Source of the DNA: Thermoanaerobaculia bacterium
GTDB lineage: Bacteria; Acidobacteriota; Thermoanaerobaculia; Multivoradales; J023
NCBI GenBank assembly: GCA_030431255.1
Contig: JAUIJL010000020.1
Coordinates: forward strand, 1-64,000
DNA: 64,000 nucleotides
Direction of reading: 5' to 3'
Of this stretch, positions 53,569 through 64,000 are shown piece by piece (positions within the stretch are counted from its first letter, which is position 1; each line of letters starts with the position of its first letter). A program made the position numbers and the translations under genes. The notes beneath the pieces are model-generated. The model had not been told where the DNA came from and searched no databases. It worked only from the letters and a program-made list of their open reading frames with translations.

Positions 53569-54858
53569 CTAGGCGCTCCCTCTATCCAATCGACCGAGGA
53601 TGGCCGACGAACGATTTTCGGGTTTGGCCATGACCACCTGCAGATCACCGATGGTGCGCTCCAGGAATCCGGCTTCGCAATAACACAGGTAGTACTCCCA
53701 CATTCGAATGAAGCGATCGGAGAATCCCAAGGCCCGGACCGAATCCAAGCGCTGCATGAACCGATGCCGCCAAGCCCTCAAGGTCAAGGCGTAGTGAGGA
53801 CCGATGTCTTCGAGGTGGGTGAGCTGAAGGTCCGTGGAACGGTTTAGCGCATCGACCAACGAGCCCACGGACAGCAGGTGGCTACCCGGAAAAATATAGA
53901 GCTGGATGAAGTCCACAGATCGCCGATATCTGCTGAATAGGCGATCCGCCATGGTGATCCCCTGCAGCGCAAACAGCCCTCCGGGCCGCAGCAGGTCAGA
54001 GCACGCTTTCAAATAAGTCGGCAGGTGCTCGTGGCCGACCGCCTCGACCATCTCGATAGAAACCAATTTGTCGTATCGACCTTCCAGATCTCGGTAGTCC
54101 TTGAGCAAGACCTCGATCCGATCCTCGAGCCCATGGGCCGCGATCCGCTCTCGAGCTTTAGCGAATTGCCGCTTTGAGATGGTGGTGGTGGTCACCCGGC
54201 AGCCGTAGTTTTCCGCGGCATAAACCGCGAATCCTCCCCACCCTGTGCCGATCTCGAGCAGATGATCCTCGGGTCCGAGCTCCAGCTTGCGACACAGCCG
54301 ATCCATTTTGACCACCGCGGCCTCATCGAGGTCTTGCCCCTCGTGCTCGAAGATGGCCGAGGAATACATCATCCACGGATCCAAGAACAGCTCGAAAAAC
54401 TCATTCGATAGGTCGTAGTGGGCGGCGATATTCCGCCGGCTTCCCTTCCGCGTATTGGCCCGCAAGAAATGGGCGAGGGCACTGATCGGGGCCACCGCCC
54501 GCCCGAGCCCACGATCCAACGACATCAAAACCTCTCGGTTTTCGAGGAACAAACGCAAGGTCGTGGTGAGGTCATCCGTCGACCACAAACCCGCCATGTA
54601 GGCCTCTGCCGCTCCCACGGCACCCCCGAACAGCACTTTGGGATAGACACGATCATCGTGGACTGTGAGCGTCACCGACGGCGGTCCCTCCGCGGTACCC
54701 AGCTCGAGCTGCTCGCCGTTTTCGAGCCATAGAATTTTCCCTTTGGGCAGCTCTTTGAGCTTGCTCATGAGCAGACGCCGGGCCCAGGCTCGCCCTGGTT
54801 TGGATTCGGTCAAGAACCCTTGCTCGACTCCGGGAAAATTTGCGATCGACCGCGTCAT
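53569..54858 (-). CDS. cfa: Cyclopropane-fatty-acyl-phospholipid synthase family protein
   Basis: The product is 429 residues. An N-terminal lipid-binding domain (TLTVHDDRVYPKVLFGG, AYMAGLWSTDDLTTTLRLFL) precedes the catalytic part: IAAHYDLSNEFFELFLDPWM, MMYSSAIFEHEGQDLDEA, LLEIGTGWGGFAVYAAENYG, LVSIEMVEAVGHEHL and the tail WEYYLCYCEAGFLERTIGD, where the conserved Glu-Cys region of Cfa lies. Family enzymes add a methylene or methyl from SAM across a cis double bond of membrane phospholipid. It follows the DUF1365 gene by 76 bases and is one base from the second methyltransferase. Confidence 0.92.
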   Translation of the reverse strand: MTRSIANFPGVEQGFLTESKPGRAWARRLLMSKLKELPKGKILWLENGEQLELGTAEGPPSVTLTVHDDRVYPKVLFGGAVGAAEAYMAGLWSTDDLTTTLRLFLENREVLMSLDRGLGRAVAPISALAHFLRANTRKGSRRNIAAHYDLSNEFFELFLDPWMMYSSAIFEHEGQDLDEAAVVKMDRLCRKLELGPEDHLLEIGTGWGGFAVYAAENYGCRVTTTTISKRQFAKARERIAAHGLEDRIEVLLKDYRDLEGRYDKLVSIEMVEAVGHEHLPTYLKACSDLLRPGGLFALQGITMADRLFSRYRRSVDFIQLYIFPGSHLLSVGSLVDALNRSTDLQLTHLEDIGPHYALTLRAWRHRFMQRLDSVRALGFSDRFIRMWEYYLCYCEAGFLERTIGDLQVVMAKPENRSSAILGRLDRGSA

Positions 54859-54934
54859 ATTTCACACCTTTCCAGGTCACTCATCCATCACCACTGGGCG
54901 GGCTGAATCCTGCCGCCCGCAGCTCAACTTCTAC

Positions 54935-55804
54935 CTATAGATCCGCCTCGTGGGGAACACGCTTCCTTGGATGGCTGTAAAACGGAACTTTCTTCATCCA
55001 CAGGCTGAGGGCCTGCCGATAGATACCGAAGAGCACCATCACCGGCATCGCCGGATATTTGAGCTGGCTGCCGAGGAGCTGCTTCGAGCTGAAGGGTAGC
55101 CGGCGATCCATGGAGAGGGTGGCGTCGAATATTTTGCCTTTCGGTCCCGATAGCGGGTGATCTTCCATGTGAACCAGGAGCGACTCCCCCGGCGGTGAAA
55201 GCTTCCAAAGATATTGGACGTCCATATCGATGAACGGCGACACGTGGAATTCTTTGGGGGTCATGAACGTCTCGACCACCCTCGGCCGTTTGGATCCGTT
55301 CGGTCCGTCCACCGCCAGCTCCTTGCGATCCACGGGTCCGGAGAGCACATAGGTATATCGCTCGTCCCAAGGAGTATTGTTGATCTCCGCGACCACGTGC
55401 TCGACCTCGGTGCCCGTAGCGTCAAAGCAGTAATAGAAACTGACGGGATTGAACGACACCCCCCAAGTACGGAGGTGGGTGAGCAAGCGAATCGGACCCT
55501 CGGGCCGCCGTCCGGTGCGGGCTGAGACCAGATCCCGCACGGCTTCATCGAGCGAAACTTCAGGGTCACCGAAGTAGTCTCGGCGTCGATACCGCACCAA
55601 AGCGGGCGACGTCGCCGACGCGCAGGCCACATTCGCCAAGATATCTTGCACGCGTCCCAGCTCGACATAGCTCATGTAAAGCCGATAGGAGAAGCTGTGG
55701 GGTTTCGGGGAGAAACGTCGATGACGCACTCGACCCGCGTAGATGCACGCCACCTCGGAGCCGAAACCGGCGGGCTCCGAGCTCGTCGAGCTCCGCGAGC
55801 TCAC
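54935..55804 (-). CDS. DUF1365 protein
   Basis: The product is 289 residues from GTG 55804, which overlaps the upstream stop as GTGA; the longer frame upstream is antisense-free but overlaps the oxidoreductase and lacks family sequence. It shows the family pattern: IYAGRVRHRRFSPKPHSFSY, YMSYVELGRV, HLRTWGVSFNPVSFYYCFD, EVEHVVAEINNTPWDERYTY, FMTPKEFHVSPFIDMDVQY. No activity is established for the family, but it nearly always lies between an FAD-dependent amine-oxidase-like gene and a Cfa-type methyltransferase, as here. A role in handling acyl chains for the Cfa enzymes is therefore likely. Confidence 0.92.
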   Translation of the reverse strand: MSSRSSTSSEPAGFGSEVACIYAGRVRHRRFSPKPHSFSYRLYMSYVELGRVQDILANVACASATSPALVRYRRRDYFGDPEVSLDEAVRDLVSARTGRRPEGPIRLLTHLRTWGVSFNPVSFYYCFDATGTEVEHVVAEINNTPWDERYTYVLSGPVDRKELAVDGPNGSKRPRVVETFMTPKEFHVSPFIDMDVQYLWKLSPPGESLLVHMEDHPLSGPKGKIFDATLSMDRRLPFSSKQLLGSQLKYPAMPVMVLFGIYRQALSLWMKKVPFYSHPRKRVPHEADL

Positions 55805-57075
55805 CAGCTTTCTCCCAAGGCAGCCGCCACCCTCAAACCGCTCTTGACCCCATCCTCGTGAAAGCCGTACCCCCAATAGGCACCGCAGAAATAGGTGCGC
55901 CCCCGGCTCACCTCCGACCATCGACTCTTGGCCGCCTCGCTCTCCGCCAAGAACAACGGATGATCCATCACCGTGCGATGGAGGATCTTGCTCGGGTCGA
56001 TGTCGTCACTGCGATTCAGGGTCACGAAATAGTCGGTCTCACTGTCTAGAGACTGCAATCGATTCATCCAATAGGTCACGGTGCTGCCGGCCGGCCCAGC
56101 GGTTTGTGGCTCGCGCGCGCCACCCCTCCGTCCCACATCCAGGTAGTAATTCCAGCTCGCCCAAGCCAATTTGCGTTTCGGCATTAAGCCGGCATCCGTG
56201 TGCAACACGACGTCGTTGGCTTGATAGGGAATAGCGTTGAGCACCTCGCGCTCCGTGTCCGTGGCGTCTCCGAGCAACGCCAACGCTTGGTCGCTGTGGG
56301 TGGCGAAAACCACCGTGTCGAATGCTTCTAGACGCCCGTCCTTCAGCTTGATCTCCACACCATGGTCTCGACGTTTGACCATCGATATCGGCGTGCTGGT
56401 TTGAACCGGGTGGGAGAGCTTGGCGGTCAGCTTCTCCACGTATCGCTGGGATCCTCCCTGGACCACACGCCATTGCGGACGGTCCCGGATTTGCAGCATG
56501 CCGTGATTGTCGAGAAAGCTGATCAGCGTGCGCAACGGAAAGCCGGACGTCCGGGATGGGTCCGTCGACCAAATGGCCGAGATCATAGGAACTAGGTAAT
56601 TCTCGACGAAGGATGCGGGAAAGCGCTCCCGCTCCAAAAAGGCTCCCAAGCTCATGGCGCGCTCGTCGGGGGAAAGGGCGGCAGCCCGGCGATGGAAGGC
56701 GAAGATGCCCGAGATCATTCGATAGAAGCTCGGCCGGGCCAAGTTGCGACGCTGGGCGAATAACTGATTCAAGCTGGATGAGCCGCAATACTCCAAGCCG
56801 TTCCGCTCATTGCGCACCCCGAAGCTCATATCGCTGAGTTGGGTCTCCACCCCCAGCTCGTCGAGCAGCTTGCAAAAGCTCGGATAGGTGCGCTCGTTGT
56901 AGACGATAAACCCCATGTCGACGGCAGTGGGTCCTCGATCTTCCTCGACCTCGAAGGTAAAGGTATGGCCACCCACATGCCGGCCGGCCTCGAAGACCCT
57001 CACCTCGTGGCGACGGTCCAACAGATAGGCGGCGACCAAACCGGAAATACCGGCCCCGATGACTGCAATTCTCAA
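55801..57075 (-). CDS. FAD-dependent oxidoreductase (amine-oxidase/desaturase-like) of the Cfa cluster
   Basis: The product is 424 residues from TTG 57075. That codon overlaps the upstream stop as TTGA, has GGAG six bases upstream, and puts the FAD-binding motif IAVIGAGISGLVAAYLL at residue 3; longer starts only add sequence antisense to nothing useful. Further landmarks are EAGRHVGGHTFTF, VDMGFIVYNERTYPSF, VENYLVPMISAIWSTDP, VFATHSDQALALL and the C-terminal YFCGAYWGYGFHEDGVKSG that closes the FAD site. In alpha-proteobacteria homologues beside Cfa-type genes act on methylated fatty acids as dehydrogenases. It overlaps DUF1365 by GTGA, so three genes are translationally coupled. Confidence 0.93.
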   Translation of the reverse strand: MRIAVIGAGISGLVAAYLLDRRHEVRVFEAGRHVGGHTFTFEVEEDRGPTAVDMGFIVYNERTYPSFCKLLDELGVETQLSDMSFGVRNERNGLEYCGSSSLNQLFAQRRNLARPSFYRMISGIFAFHRRAAALSPDERAMSLGAFLERERFPASFVENYLVPMISAIWSTDPSRTSGFPLRTLISFLDNHGMLQIRDRPQWRVVQGGSQRYVEKLTAKLSHPVQTSTPISMVKRRDHGVEIKLKDGRLEAFDTVVFATHSDQALALLGDATDTEREVLNAIPYQANDVVLHTDAGLMPKRKLAWASWNYYLDVGRRGGAREPQTAGPAGSTVTYWMNRLQSLDSETDYFVTLNRSDDIDPSKILHRTVMDHPLFLAESEAAKSRWSEVSRGRTYFCGAYWGYGFHEDGVKSGLRVAAALGESW

Positions 57076-57938
57076 GCTTCGCTCCGATCCGCGTTCTTCG
57101 GGAATCCGTTTTTGGGAAACCACGGAAAAAACGCCGGGGTTTGCTCGATATATTCGCGATACGCGGGTCGACGATCGACGATGGTTTTTTCCAACAGACT
57201 GACCCCGCTGACTTTGAGCAAGAAGAAGGTCATCAGCAACGTGCTCGGCAGGGTCCAGACTCCGCCTTCGAAACCACAGGCGAAGATCCAAAAGGACCAC
57301 CAGATCACCGCATCACCGAAATAATTGGGATGCCGAGTGTAACGCCATAACCCACTGTTCAGCACGTGTCCCTTGTTGTCCGGATCCGCCTTGAATCGAG
57401 ACAGCTGCCAATCCCCCACCGCTTCGAAGAACAGGCCGACCGAGAAAAGCAACACAAACGCCGGAAGCGCCCAACGCATATGGACGGTCGGCTGAGATGC
57501 TTGGGCGAAGAGCAAAGGCAAACCGATGATCGAGATCAAGACACCTTGGAGCCAGAATACTTTCCACAGGCTTTTCCAGCCGAAGCTGGAGCCGGTGCGT
57601 TCTCGCATGTTCCGGTACCGATAGTCCTCACCCCCGGCCTGATGGTGACGCCACGCGATATGCCCCGCCAGCCGAAGCCCCCACAAAGTCACGAGACCGC
57701 CATGGAGCCATTGGAGCGGCGCCGGCTCGCCGTTCTCGACGCCGAAATAGGCATAGATCCATGTCGTCAGGACAAAGCCGAGGCTCCAATAGGAATCGAC
57801 GATGCTCACGTCCCGAAGGCGGAGGCTCCACAGCCACAGGAGAAAAGTAGACGCCAACACCGCCCCGAGTCCCCACGACCAAGCCTCTATCAACCCTGTC
57901 TCTATCAACCGTGTTTCCAGAAGACCTGTCTCAAGCAA
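57072..57938 (-). CDS. DUF1295 membrane protein (steroid 5-alpha-reductase-like fold)
   Basis: The product is 288 residues from TTG 57938, with GGAGG seven bases upstream. Five to six transmembrane helices (VLASTFLLWLWSLRL, LQGVLISIIGLPLLFAQ, FVLLFSVGLFFEAVGDWQ) and the conserved end LNSGLWRYTRHPNYFGDAVI and EKTIVDRRPAYREYIEQTP place it in the DUF1295/isoprenylcysteine-methyltransferase-like family; RYTRHPNYFG is the cofactor-binding hallmark. The first 20 residues (LETGLLETRLIETGLIEAW) come from a 15-base repeat and are probably not part of the fold. It opens the lipid-modification operon and probably acts on a membrane lipid. Confidence 0.9.
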   Translation of the reverse strand: MLETGLLETRLIETGLIEAWSWGLGAVLASTFLLWLWSLRLRDVSIVDSYWSLGFVLTTWIYAYFGVENGEPAPLQWLHGGLVTLWGLRLAGHIAWRHHQAGGEDYRYRNMRERTGSSFGWKSLWKVFWLQGVLISIIGLPLLFAQASQPTVHMRWALPAFVLLFSVGLFFEAVGDWQLSRFKADPDNKGHVLNSGLWRYTRHPNYFGDAVIWWSFWIFACGFEGGVWTLPSTLLMTFFLLKVSGVSLLEKTIVDRRPAYREYIEQTPAFFPWFPKNGFPKNADRSEA

Positions 57939-58004: not shown

Positions 58005-59252
58005 TCAGACCATCAAACCCCTTTGGACCAGCCAAAAGAGACCGAGAGCGCACAAAAATGCGGCTACCCCGTTGAGCAGCGGATCTCGAATGCTCCGGAA
58101 TCGCTCAAGGCGCAATATCGCCGCCGGAACCAAAAGAAGCGCGACCACCATCAGCTGCCCCATCTCGACTCCCAAGTTGAAACCCAACAGGGAAGCGGCC
58201 AGCCGCCCCGGTGCCAATCCCAGATCCATCAGCACGCTGGCAAAGCCGAATCCGTGAACCAGGCCGAATCCGATGGTCAGGGCCGGACGGGAACGTGCGG
58301 CCCACTGATCGTCCTGGGCCAAGTTGAGGTAGAAAGCCGTAAACGCCGCCAGCCCGACCAGGGTGACCAGCGGCAGGCCAGGTCCGCCCAAGAGCTTGAC
58401 CAGCGCCCAAGCCCCTAACGCCAGGGCTCCCGCGGCGGCTATCGGGCGGAAGCTCCGGGTGGAACGGGCCACGTGCTCGGCGGCCACCAGAGCGATGGTG
58501 AATCCGATGAACGCTTCGATCACGGGAATATCGGGCTCGACCCAACCCAGAACCGCGAGGCTCAAGGTGATGCTGTGACCGACGGTAAAACCGGTGATCA
58601 ACCACACCAAATCCCGAAGCCGGGCACAGAGAATGAGCAGCGCGAGCACAAAAGCCAGGTGATCGAGGCCGATCAAGATGTGCTCCACCCCGAGCACCAA
58701 ATAGCGAAGAAAGACCGACGATTCTCCCACCTGGGATAACCTGCGGCTCTGCTCGTCGGCACTGAACACCCACTCACTGAGCGAGCCGGATGCGTCTTCA
58801 CCGCCGAGGCGTCGGACCTTGGCAAAATGGAGGTGGTCGGGGATCCGGTCAAAAAACGTCGTCACCGTCAGGTCCGCTCCCCCGGCCGCGGCCAATGATC
58901 GCGGGCAGGTGAAGCGAGAGCCGACTCGTAGGAATCCCGACGACGACGGCAATGCTCCGTAGTCGGTGTGCTCGCAAGCTTGTCCGCCGATCTCGAGCCG
59001 GACCCCGGTCGCGAGGGCTTCCGCCAGGAGACGGAGCAGCTCTTCTTGGGAGGGCCGACGAAACTCGTCGGTTCCATAGAGCCGCTGAGCTTCCAGCTCC
59101 GCGACGGTGAAGGTCATGTGGACGGTGCCTTCGTTGAAGATCCAATCCGAGAAGGAGTGGCTGCGCGCGTGCCCCCAAGCTGCCGGTGTCGAAGCCAACA
59201 TCAACCCGAGAATCCAAGACAGCACCGCGACGCTCGACATCGGCGACCTCAT
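58005..59252 (-). CDS. HupE/UreJ_2-family membrane protein
   Basis: The product is 415 residues. A signal peptide (LSWILGLMLASTPAAWGHA) is followed by a ~170-residue periplasmic domain with a likely disulfide (GQACEHTDY and SRFTCPRSL). The C-terminal half has about seven transmembrane helices carrying the family motifs GVEHILIGLDHLAFVLALL, LITGFTVGHSITLSLAVLG, AEHVARS and GFGLVHGFGFASVL, with conserved His residues in the helices. Related HupE/UreJ proteins are thought to move nickel or other metals; this larger group has no proven substrate. It overlaps the upstream SurA-like gene by ATGA, which ties it to periplasmic folding factors. Confidence 0.88.
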   Translation of the reverse strand: MRSPMSSVAVLSWILGLMLASTPAAWGHARSHSFSDWIFNEGTVHMTFTVAELEAQRLYGTDEFRRPSQEELLRLLAEALATGVRLEIGGQACEHTDYGALPSSSGFLRVGSRFTCPRSLAAAGGADLTVTTFFDRIPDHLHFAKVRRLGGEDASGSLSEWVFSADEQSRRLSQVGESSVFLRYLVLGVEHILIGLDHLAFVLALLILCARLRDLVWLITGFTVGHSITLSLAVLGWVEPDIPVIEAFIGFTIALVAAEHVARSTRSFRPIAAAGALALGAWALVKLLGGPGLPLVTLVGLAAFTAFYLNLAQDDQWAARSRPALTIGFGLVHGFGFASVLMDLGLAPGRLAASLLGFNLGVEMGQLMVVALLLVPAAILRLERFRSIRDPLLNGVAAFLCALGLFWLVQRGLMV

Positions 59253-59983
59253 GGCTCACCCTCCCCACCGGCTGCCGCCCCATGGGTTTCAGCAGCGGAT
59301 CCGCCTTCGCCCTCCGTCCCGCCCGGCGGCAGCGATCCGCTCTCGACGTCTCCGTCCCGTCCATAAACCGCCGCCTGCAAACCTTCTAGGTCCGACTTCT
59401 CCGCGAGCATTTCGACGTCCGTGCTTTGCCTCAGCCAGAGCAGGTATTGCTCCAACGCCCGGCTGTTGCGGATCCTGGTCTGTTCCTTTTCCAAACGAAA
59501 GCGAACTTTTTCGAAGGGTGGCGCCTCCGGATCCGCCAGATACTTTTCTTCGTAGAGCCGCTTCAATGCGGACTCGTCGAAATCGTCGGCAGCTGGAAAA
59601 ATCACGTCGAGCATCCTGCGGGCCACCGCATCTCGGAGACCGCGATGGTGCCTCAAACGATCGGTGGCCAACGCCTCTCGGAGCCAAAGCTCCTCGTCGA
59701 TTAAGGCATCGAGGGCAGCGGACTCCTGCGACTCATCGGCGCCGGCGGGATCGACCCCCATCTCCCGCAATTTTGTTTCGAGCTCGACGGTCAGCAATGG
59801 AACCTCGCCCACACGGGCCACGACCTCATCGGCACGGAGCCCCTGCGCCGAGGAATCCGCTGCGATCTCCGCCGAGCCGGAGCTCTCGCTCGCGTCTTGC
59901 CATCCCAGGCCGACGCCGATCAGCGCCGACACCATCAAGCCGATCACGGCCGGATTCCGGATCCCCCCGCCTCGGTCGGTCAT
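59249..59983 (-). CDS. SurA/PpiC N-domain-like periplasmic chaperone, no rotamase domain (copy 2)
   Basis: The product is 244 residues. An N-terminal signal or anchor (AVIGLMVSALIGVGLGW) is followed by a chaperone-like helical domain of the SurA_N type: VVARVGEVPLLTVELETKL, ALDALIDEELWLREALATD, AVARRMLDVIF, then a KLYEEKYLADPE helix. The PpiC rotamase domain expected in parvulins is missing; instead there is a short C-terminal helix and a Gly/Glu-rich tail (GGTEGEGGSAAETHGAAAGG). It is related to the gene just upstream (same AR-VGEV start and LIDEEL core), so the pair is a duplication. ATGA overlaps on both sides couple it to that gene and to the HupE-like gene. Confidence 0.78.
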   Translation of the reverse strand: MTDRGGGIRNPAVIGLMVSALIGVGLGWQDASESSGSAEIAADSSAQGLRADEVVARVGEVPLLTVELETKLREMGVDPAGADESQESAALDALIDEELWLREALATDRLRHHRGLRDAVARRMLDVIFPAADDFDESALKRLYEEKYLADPEAPPFEKVRFRLEKEQTRIRNSRALEQYLLWLRQSTDVEMLAEKSDLEGLQAAVYGRDGDVESGSLPPGGTEGEGGSAAETHGAAAGGEGEP

Positions 59984-60678
59984 GGCTCGGCCTCCGAGGT
60001 TCCCTCTGGGCCCGCGGGGCGGTCCCCGCTTTCGGCGGGCCGCTCCTGTGTGAAACGCTCGACCTCCGTCTTGGATCGCAACGACGCGACGAATCGATCC
60101 AACGCCTCCTGTCTGCGAAGGCGGTCCAAATCACGAAGCACTCGGGGGCGGATCTCATCCAACGAACGCCCCTCGTAGGACTCCGGACGGCTCTTAAAGA
60201 AGCTTTCTACTTCTTCCGCAGTGGGCTCGGAGAGGCTCGCCAACACCTTCTCCTTCATGGAGATCACGAGGGCGCGCCGAAGGGCAGGGTCCGTGTCCAA
60301 AAGGCCTAGGGTCTGAGCCCGCTGCATCAACAACTCTTCTTCGACCAAGTCGTCGAGCAGCTCCCGCAGCTCGGGTGTAGACATCGTGTCCCGGCGCAAG
60401 CCGATCTGCGACTCCACTGCCCGGCGAAGATCATCCCGGGTCAAGATCACCTCGCCCACTCGGGCGAGGGCTTGGGGGCCCGGCCTCCCGCTCACCGTCT
60501 CAACCGAGCCTTTTGAGCTCGGCTGAAGCGCTCCGGACAAGGCCAGCCCAAGGCTCAGCAGAGCGCCCACCGCCAGCCACCGTGAAGAGAGCTTCCGGTG
60601 CGGGGCTCCCTGCTTCGGACTTTCCGGTCCTAGATCATCCACACCCGCATCCTTCAGGCTCGTTTTCTGCCCGTTCAT
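59980..60678 (-). CDS. SurA/PpiC N-domain-like periplasmic chaperone, no rotamase domain (copy 1)
   Basis: The product is 232 residues from the ATG at 60678, preceded by GGGAG; the frame to 60798 has no site. A transmembrane or signal segment (WLAVGALLSLGLALSGAL) is followed by a SurA_N-like domain: LARVGEVILTRDDLRRAVE, LRELLDDLVEEELLMQRAQ, LRRALVISMKEKVLASL, PTAEEVESFFKSRPESYEG. No parvulin catalytic domain follows. The domain order and the LVEEELL core match copy 2. It may assist folding or membrane insertion of the HupE-like protein, since the three genes form one tight operon; that link is inferred. Confidence 0.78.
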   Translation of the reverse strand: MNGQKTSLKDAGVDDLGPESPKQGAPHRKLSSRWLAVGALLSLGLALSGALQPSSKGSVETVSGRPGPQALARVGEVILTRDDLRRAVESQIGLRRDTMSTPELRELLDDLVEEELLMQRAQTLGLLDTDPALRRALVISMKEKVLASLSEPTAEEVESFFKSRPESYEGRSLDEIRPRVLRDLDRLRRQEALDRFVASLRSKTEVERFTQERPAESGDRPAGPEGTSEAEP

Positions 60679-61136
60679 GCTCTCCCTGCTCGTCCTTATT
60701 GCCGGACCGTCGACGACGTAGATTGAAGACGTAGATGAAGATGGCCATGCCCAGCCCCGATTCTGCAGCAGATGCACACCGGCTCTGGATCTCGGCAAAC
60801 ACCATCTCTCTCGCTCCTAGGGTAAGGGATCTGTCCTGAATTTTCACAGGGGTTACGAACCGCTCTCAAGTATGTTAAAAGGCACTCTCAGGGACTGAAA
60901 TTCGGGACTTCTCATCCAGCGACTTCCCCGCTCCCTCTTGCTCGGTGCGGCCATTCCCCTAGGACTCGCTTCGACCTAGAGCACGCCGGCACCGACCATG
61001 GGCCGACACGGTCGGCTCGAAGGTCGGAGCAGCGTCGAGCCCGATGGCCTGCCTCCGACCATAGCTCTAAGAATCCGCAGCTTCACGAACCCGCGGCTCA
61101 CCGACGATGATGCCGCTCGATGCACGAGGAGATTCC
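60679..61136. other. 458-base divergent intergenic region
   Basis: This lies between the SurA-like operon and the ornithine aminotransferase gene. I see no gene, clear promoter pair, riboswitch or strong hairpin. It must contain the divergent promoters. GAGGAG at 61126-61131 is the ribosome site of the aminotransferase. Confidence 0.5.
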
Positions 61137-62499: not shown

Positions 62500-64000
62500 C
62501 TACCGGCCGATGCGCACCAGGAATCGATTGCCTTCCGGCTTTACCGAAAGCACCCGGCTCTGGCGATCGGCCATGTCCATGACCAGATGAATCTCGTTTC
62601 CCCGACGCTTTTTGTGCCAACCGAATCGAATCTGCCGAACCCCGCCCACACCGACCTGTAGGGTCGACAAGCTCGCCCGCCGGTCCACACCGAGCAATCG
62701 CACGACCTCCCGGGGCGACTCTCCGTCCAAACGGAAGTGATTCACCCGTGCTGAAGACGCCGCTCCGTCGACGGTAATCGTCAACAGCAATCCCTGCCCC
62801 TCGGCTCGCCAAGTCACGTCCGACAAGCTCTTGAACGCTTTTCCGCCGGCCGGACGGGAAGCGGTAGGAGGGGATGTCTGCCGAGGCTCAGGATCGGCGG
62901 CCTTCGGCGGCGGTGTTTCAGCCGGAGCTCGCGAAGGCGAGGCGGACTGTCGCGGGGGGGGCGAGGATCCTGGGGACGGTTTGGATTGAGATTCCCCAGG
63001 ATCTGCTTGGGTGGGTGTGGCTTTCGCCGGCGACTCGTCGACTTTTGAGCTGCCTGGCGCTTGGTAAACGCTTCCCGGCGCCGCAGACTGTGTCGCCGGA
63101 GCTTCAGTGGGAGGCGGGGTTACTTGAGCTTGGCCGTCCGCGCTGGCCCATTCGAATAATTGATCGCTAAAGAGGTACCCCAAGGCCGCCGCCAGCACCA
63201 AGACCAAAGACGCGATCGGCAAGATCGGTAGATCCCTTTTGGGCGCCGGGCGGTGGTCAAAATGATCCTCGCCCAAATGTTGGAGATAGGGATCCGACGC
63301 GGCGTCCGAAGGCATGGGGGTCACCAGAGGTAGCTCGGGCTCATCGGCCATCTTCGGATCCAACGGCAGGTCCAGGGCGAAATCCTGGTCCTTCATGAAG
63401 ACGTTGGAGAGCGAGTCGACCTCAGACTCCAGGGGCGGCGGAGCGAGGGGAGATTCGGGAGCAGCTTCCACCCCCGCAAACGAAAGCTCCCCCGGTTGAT
63501 GTCCCACCGATGGGGAGGGCTCGTGGCCAGTAACCTTTGGGATGTCAGCCTTTGGGATGTCAGCCTTTGGGATGTCAGCCTTTGGGATGTCGAACGCCGT
63601 GGGATCCGAATCCCAATCATCGGGCAGCTCCGAGCCTTCCGACTGGAGATCCTGCTCCGAGGGGCTGTCGAGCCCCTCACCCGAATCGAAAATCGAGCGT
63701 TCTTTCATCCCCCCGGGCAAGGCATGATCGGATGCGGCCGGCTGAGGTGCGGCCGGCTGAGGTGCGGCCGGCTGAGGTGCGGCCGGCTGGGGCACCGGCG
63801 GACGAGCAACGACCGGTGGAATCACCATGTCGCCCGCGGAAGGACTGACTTCCTGAACCGGAGCCGGGTGACGACTGGCCAGTCGATCCTTGATGTGTCG
63901 ACTGACCAGTTTGAAAATCAGCTGACGGTCCCGTTGCTCCAGAAACTTGAACTTTAGGCCGAAGCCCATTTCTTTGCCCGGTCCGCCATCCGTGGCTCGG
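62500..64000 (-). CDS. PilZ (partial) - membrane - AMIN-like protein, 5' end outside window
   Basis: The frame is open to the window edge, so the ATG at 63969 is internal. The first visible residues (GPGKEMGFGLKFKFLEQRDR) are the end of a PilZ domain, which binds c-di-GMP. A long Pro/Ala/Asp-rich cytoplasmic linker follows, with two repeat arrays, (AAPQP)n and (DIPKA)n. One transmembrane helix (LPILPIASLVLVLAAALGYLF) then leads to a Pro/Ser-rich periplasmic linker and a ~105-residue AMIN-like domain (DVTWRAEGQGLLLTITVDG, REVVRLLGVDR, NEIHLVMDMAD, LVRIGR). This suggests c-di-GMP control of a cell-wall or pilus-secretin contact. PilZ is inferred from the tail only. Confidence 0.75.
   Translation of the reverse strand, partial: RATDGGPGKEMGFGLKFKFLEQRDRQLIFKLVSRHIKDRLASRHPAPVQEVSPSAGDMVIPPVVARPPVPQPAAPQPAAPQPAAPQPAASDHALPGGMKERSIFDSGEGLDSPSEQDLQSEGSELPDDWDSDPTAFDIPKADIPKADIPKADIPKVTGHEPSPSVGHQPGELSFAGVEAAPESPLAPPPLESEVDSLSNVFMKDQDFALDLPLDPKMADEPELPLVTPMPSDAASDPYLQHLGEDHFDHRPAPKRDLPILPIASLVLVLAAALGYLFSDQLFEWASADGQAQVTPPPTEAPATQSAAPGSVYQAPGSSKVDESPAKATPTQADPGESQSKPSPGSSPPPRQSASPSRAPAETPPPKAADPEPRQTSPPTASRPAGGKAFKSLSDVTWRAEGQGLLLTITVDGAASSARVNHFRLDGESPREVVRLLGVDRRASLSTLQVGVGGVRQIRFGWHKKRRGNEIHLVMDMADRQSRVLSVKPEGNRFLVRIGR
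63534..63591. repeat. 15-base tandem repeat encoding (DIPKA)n
   Basis: There are three perfect copies of GATGTCAGCCTTTGG plus partial copies at each end. They encode DIPKA pentapeptides in the linker of the PilZ-like protein. Confidence 0.92.
63733..63792. repeat. 15-base tandem repeat encoding (AAPQP)n
   Basis: There are about four near-perfect copies of TGCGGCCGGCTGAGG, encoding AAPQP pentapeptides in the same linker. Copy number is likely variable between strains. Confidence 0.92.

Follow-up and report, generated by a model that had tools for sequence, protein, structure and literature searches.

In the 64,000-nucleotide stretch of DNA analysed here (the window), a HupE/UreJ-2 permease of a long form is encoded directly behind two SurA-like proteins that lack a parvulin domain, and by sequence comparison this trio most likely derives from a chaperone-permease operon, one parvulin chaperone having given way to two without parvulin. 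The components are already known; what is new is the variant in which a parvulin-free tandem accompanies a long-form HupE.

Organisation of the gene string

All three genes lie on the minus strand: gene A (59980..60678) encodes 232 aa with a hydrophobic anchor at residues 33-53, gene B (59249..59983) encodes 244 aa with such an anchor at about residues 8-29, and hupE (58005..59252) encodes a permease of 415 aa with a predicted N-terminal periplasmic domain. By ORF coordinates, the stop of A overlaps the start of B in an ATGA (59980..59983, minus strand), as does the stop of B with the start of hupE (59249..59252, minus strand), which confirms the ATGA overlaps of the preliminary description. 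Gene A has a further open TTG start at 60798. As expected of coding genes, the GC3 of A, B and hupE (0.73-0.75) falls inside the range of six neighbouring genes (0.67-0.76). Between 57900 and 61200 there was no Rfam match at E up to 1, and promoter and terminator scans gave results at chance level. Elsewhere in the window, the ORF at 62500-63969 encodes a product with short tandem repeats of DIPKA and AAPQP units.

The long-form permease

HupE matches PF13795 at E 3.8e-42 and 144.1 bits (curated cut-off 24.5), which bears out its initial recognition as a HupE/UreJ-like permease, and residues H191, D197, H198, H226, H333, N359, E363 and Q366 are identical in 78/78 aligned homologues. Its signal segment is a hydrophobic stretch at residues 3-26 by hydropathy, and the end of the signal peptide, predicted from this alone, would leave His28 (codon 59169..59171, minus strand, placed by alignment) as the N-terminal residue, that is, a His1 of the anglerase type. 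A His occupies this position in 71 of the 72 aligned homologues that have a residue there, six rows having a gap and the single exception, an Arg in L007, belonging to a row that starts upstream of the gene; in four long forms it is invariant. The HupE of L112, which is in two pieces, was left out of trees and residue counts, and L051 was left out of one early tree. The predicted periplasmic domain, at about residues 28-180 (58713..59171, minus strand; approximate boundaries from the alignment), holds Cys93, Cys116 and His140. The permease had been called His-rich, which 11 His in 415 residues do not markedly make it; its key His residues are invariant.

Its description as a seven-helix protein probably falls short as well. 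A hydrophobic region at about residues 263-320 (58293..58466, minus strand; alignment and hydropathy) constitutes the long-form insertion, such that 61 residues lie between columns 262 and 322, where 78 other HupEs have 8-29; the insertion aligns in the long forms L156-L158, and its extra hydrophobic segments probably raise the helix count above seven. The AF2 model of HupE is poor (pLDDT 51.4), with strands and helices in the N-terminal domain. A HupE profile (A5) gave no PDB match for the fold of this domain at E up to 1, and a PDB sequence search with HupE alone gave no meaningful match.

A joining of this kind, of an exported N-terminal-His domain to a HupE/UreJ-2 permease, was published in 2025 for the Ang-1/Ang-2 'anglerases' (PMC12537917). 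That paper gives a Cu2+ Kd of 73.6 and 62.3 nM for the domains of two proteins and 220 nM for Ni2+ in one. As neighbouring genes it lists DUF4198, indigoidine-synthase-like, PfkB and metallophosphatase ones, and its text mentions none for an isomerase, SurA or rotamase (PMC12537917). The window HupE is like the anglerases in its PF13795 permease, its predicted His-first exported domain and the same permease residues, and unlike them in the insertion of about 50 residues that makes it a long form. It is probably a copper or nickel permease, and presumably binds the metal itself.

Two SurA-like proteins without a parvulin domain

Proteins A and B retrieve each other by phmmer (E 4.7e-9 and 4.9e-8) at 26% identity, and on this comparison are paralogues, with B the diverged copy. 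Against curated families, A stays under the cut-off both for SurA_N_3 (E 6.5e-5; 23.3 bits, cut-off 27.2) and for TIGR02925 EpsD (29.7 bits, cut-off 108.9), Pfam and NCBIfam searches with B returned no family match, and neither protein has a Pfam match to a rotamase (PpiC-type) domain. We compared both with a profile built from the operonic partners of 15 long-form HupEs (294 positions, A and B excluded), the members of which themselves match SurA_N. A scores 104.7 bits over positions 5-146 and 250-289, and B 64.3 bits over positions 14-141 and 247-290; the positions absent, 147-249 in A and 142-246 in B, are the parvulin stretch. The junction that replaces it lies at residues 169-171 of A (60166..60174) and residues 147-152 of B (59528..59545; both on the minus strand, placed by the partner profile), and the C-terminal helix that completes the SurA/PEB4-type core is present in both by profile match. 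Two proteins without parvulin and with a probable SurA_N-like module, much as first described, are what the profile matches and the missing rotamase match sustain, whilst the notion that they might be truncated pseudogenes finds no support, the frames being open and each protein having one clean internal deletion.

The two differ in how firmly they can be placed. With a profile of the N-module, A scores 86.1 bits and B 41.9, the best short-form partner reaching 45.9, above B, and none of 14 unrelated SurA/PrsA-like control loci exceeding 30.3; with the full long-form profile, the control SurA-like protein of L093 reaches 60.6 bits, nearly equal to B. By these scores A clearly belongs to the long-form partner kind, and B probably does.

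Each protein has one N-terminal hydrophobic segment by hydropathy, a predicted inner-membrane anchor, and B ends in an acidic tail after the C-terminal helix. Cys is absent from both; the sole His of A is residue 27, ahead of the anchor, and B has three His, including a His-His pair at 112-113. The AF2 model of A is poor (pLDDT 54.2; best E of a fold search 1.2), and PDB sequence searches with A alone and B alone returned no relevant chain. The likeness to chaperones of resolved structure runs through the partner alignment (A6), which matches HP_0175 (1.4e-15), PEB4 (1.1e-13), PrsA (1.9e-10) and SurA (4.1e-10); A and B are unlike all of these in having no parvulin domain.

A recurring chaperone-HupE pair

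A profile scan places a membrane-anchored SurA-like chaperone before HupE at 35/72 other loci (36/73 with the window), a sum of 14/48 loci from the window's taxonomic order, which were hand-picked and do not include several near-identical genomes from a single genus, 15/18 loci from the long-form search, 1/1 from the order of G1091, and five preselected, L146-L150 having been chosen partly for an already known partner. The Rotamase_2 cut-off is exceeded by 18 of the 20 partners scanned with Pfam, the other two being those of L060, with no family match, and L163, just under. A partner is lacking at 37/72 loci, six of them (L050, L063, L069, L083, L195 and L043) with less than 1.5 kb upstream, and tandem partners occur at none of the 72 within the upstream DNA examined. 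Chaperone and HupE genes overlap by 1-4 bp in 8/15 long-form loci.

On plasmids, the pair is annotated in PLSDB as a peptidylprolyl isomerase and a HupE/UreJ family protein, and DUF3604 precedes the chaperone in all three regions opened (Sinorhizobium, Rhizobium and Rhodobacter), as it lies upstream in 8/15 long-form loci with a partner; protein A has no match in PLSDB plasmids. This plasmid cluster is like the trio in its anchored SurA-like chaperone directly before HupE, but there a single chaperone with Rotamase_2 accompanies a short-form HupE, whereas the window has two chaperones without Rotamase_2, a long-form HupE and no DUF3604. The genome of the window also holds a second operon of this kind (contig C27, 126590-130688; L039, L196), consisting of DUF3604 (128802-130688), a chaperone with a parvulin domain (127511-128680) and then HupE. 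Two other HupE contexts recur in the window's order, judged by eye from the ends of upstream ORFs: a TPR-like protein (L040, L043, L046, L052, L059, L068 and L071) and an acyl-CoA-dehydrogenase-like protein (L041, L057, L061, L065 and L079).

Within these operons the parvulin domain seems expendable, and appears from the sequences to be under weak constraint. A short-form chaperone (L060:4772-5491) is independently without it, still upstream of HupE; the partner at L058 has part of it deleted; and the His of the first strand, which we take to be a parvulin motif, is kept by eye in 8/14 short-form partners and in only 1/15 long-form ones. In the literature searched we found no relevant paper on the chaperone-HupE pair, and to that extent the first view of the system as not described holds; against this, the pair stands annotated on plasmids, and the permease type has its 2025 paper (PMC12537917).

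Origin of the trio

Our genome searches score few candidates per genome, and the figures that follow hold among the matches listed. In the phylum of G497 (the Novosphingobium genome holding L006; Pseudomonadota), with 398 genomes searched, three listed matches span the insertion (G740, 7.1e-65; G826, 2.5e-44; G802, 1.9e-39), and in the class of G802 at least 15 of 337 genomes match at 1e-25 or better, the best at 8.7e-67. In the phylum of the window itself (396 genomes), no listed HupE match outside its own genome is better than 4.6e-19, and that one is partial. Outside the window, the long form was found in Pseudomonadota only, among the matches listed.

A tree built from 43 HupEs puts that of the window inside a clade of 18 rows, LONG, with support 100/99. 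A chaperone is present at 15 of the 18 long-form loci (L161-L163 and L181-L195), and two chaperones at none. The tree rows nearest the window HupE, L184 and L190, have no SurA-like chaperone upstream, and it is therefore not obligatory for a long-form HupE; L195 has only 165 bases upstream. At L184:4770-5474 and L190:1080-1772, the chaperone's place is taken by a small protein that starts like a lipoprotein and matches no Pfam family. Descent from the operon type of the short-form partners in the window's order was considered and rejected, since the long-form profile scores higher (A 104.7 and B 64.3 bits, against 26.9 and 11.8 with the short-form profile) and HupE lies in the LONG clade. Early trees without long forms had not placed HupE, which stood there on a long branch (p-AU 0.132 for its grouping in one clade with short-form pairs), and on a single origin of the pairing for the LONG and short-form clades the test decides neither way (p-AU 0.0955).

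The trio itself was found in no other genome examined, and a search for B in 148 genomes of the class gave, among the matches listed, its own genome and one marginal match. Lack of conservation of the trio, which the preliminary description had set as a ground for refutation, thus applies only by half: the trio stands alone among the loci surveyed, but the two-gene type of the likely ancestor is conserved, at 35/72 loci. In three relatives (G001, G004 and G002), the aminotransferase gene adjoins DUF1295, at distances of 301, 259 and 240 bases between the ends of the matches, and matches to A, B and HupE are absent from the stretches read between these flanking genes; in G003 and G006 the stretch read did not reach the aminotransferase, and G005 was not in the site comparison. 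As the flanking genes are adjacent without the trio in three relatives, the trio probably arrived as a unit between the aminotransferase and DUF1295 genes, presumably by horizontal transfer, although it may instead have been lost in the relatives. Nothing in its base composition points to a foreign source. Directly downstream of the trio lies a DUF1295 - amine oxidase - DUF1365 - CMAS (cyclopropane synthase-like) cluster (window 53569-57938), an order that G001 keeps without the trio. The duplication of the chaperone may have come before or after the loss of parvulin.

Discussion

We posit that HupE acts as a permease of the inner membrane and that its exported N-terminal domain, with its His first, would capture copper or nickel for the permease. 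A and B, encoded just before it, would be chaperones anchored in the inner membrane with a SurA/PEB4-type N+C core, keeping the periplasmic domain of HupE, or the complete permease on its way out of the translocon, folding-competent. The prolyl-isomerase domain would be dispensable for this action, and perhaps the two proteins act as a pair, which is our guess from their duplication. We give a little better than an even chance to this reading as a whole, with A and B dedicated to HupE and PpiD-like without parvulin; we infer their localisation and client, the metal, and any complex of A with B. A dedicated folding role for HupE is favoured because the chaperone-HupE pair recurs, and since HupE is their fixed neighbour, it is the HupE domain or the permease that A and B would help to fold.

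Deprived of its parvulin domain, PpiD of E. coli still functions as long as it is held in the inner membrane, and in vitro the shortened protein shows chaperone activity (PMC2956729). The activity of SurA resides mainly in its N+C core, its isomerase domains being not fully expendable (PMC2556385), and the PpiD-YfgM complex acts at the Sec translocon (PMC9643414). A and B look like natural equivalents of such a parvulin-less PpiD, and are like PpiD in their predicted inner-membrane anchor and SurA-like module; PpiD is unlike them in being larger, in having a parvulin domain and in serving as a general Sec-translocon factor with no link to a permease operon (PMC2956729, PMC9643414). We could speculate, with more doubt than belief, that HupE/UreJ-2 permeases own operon-encoded anchored chaperones whose contribution is not isomerisation, in the present case two parvulin-free paralogues acting as a heterodimeric holdase on HupE's metal-capturing domain.

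Other readings of A and B have to be weighed against a role dedicated to HupE. They could be general envelope chaperones, or chaperones of another client such as exported enzymes of the DUF3604 type, merely co-transcribed with HupE; DUF3604 does stand before the chaperone in the three plasmid regions, in 8/15 long-form loci and in the C27 operon of the same genome. However, there is no DUF3604 beside the window trio, and the constant neighbour is HupE, with which the chaperone gene overlaps by 1-4 bp in 8/15 cases, so we consider this explanation unlikely. Somewhat less probable still is that A and B are decaying, non-working remnants of one parvulin chaperone. Their restriction to one genome among those examined would fit decay, as would the strong divergence of B, with no family match, and the partnerless state of the nearest long-form HupEs, L184 and L190; yet the frames are open, the anchor and both chaperone parts are kept, the same domain is cleanly missing in both, GC3 is coding-like and the ATGA overlaps are preserved.

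The preliminary description had left the choice between folding and metal delivery, and the recurrence of the pair at 35/72 loci speaks for folding. That A and B are metallochaperones handing copper or nickel to HupE strikes us as very improbable: they do share an operon with a probable metal permease, and B has its His-His pair at 112-113, but neither protein has a Cys, the lone His of A lies before the anchor, His are scarce in B too (three), and such residues are not conserved across the partner alignment.

Both the window's order and Pseudomonadota show recurrences of the pair of an anchored chaperone and HupE, yet no paper on it came up in the literature searched. Should the chaperones serve the permease, they would represent a client-specific version of PpiD and SurA, and a new assembly factor tied to the anglerase model of metal capture. 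The parvulin-free pair of the window, for its part, offers a natural test of the N+C core as the working part of these chaperones.
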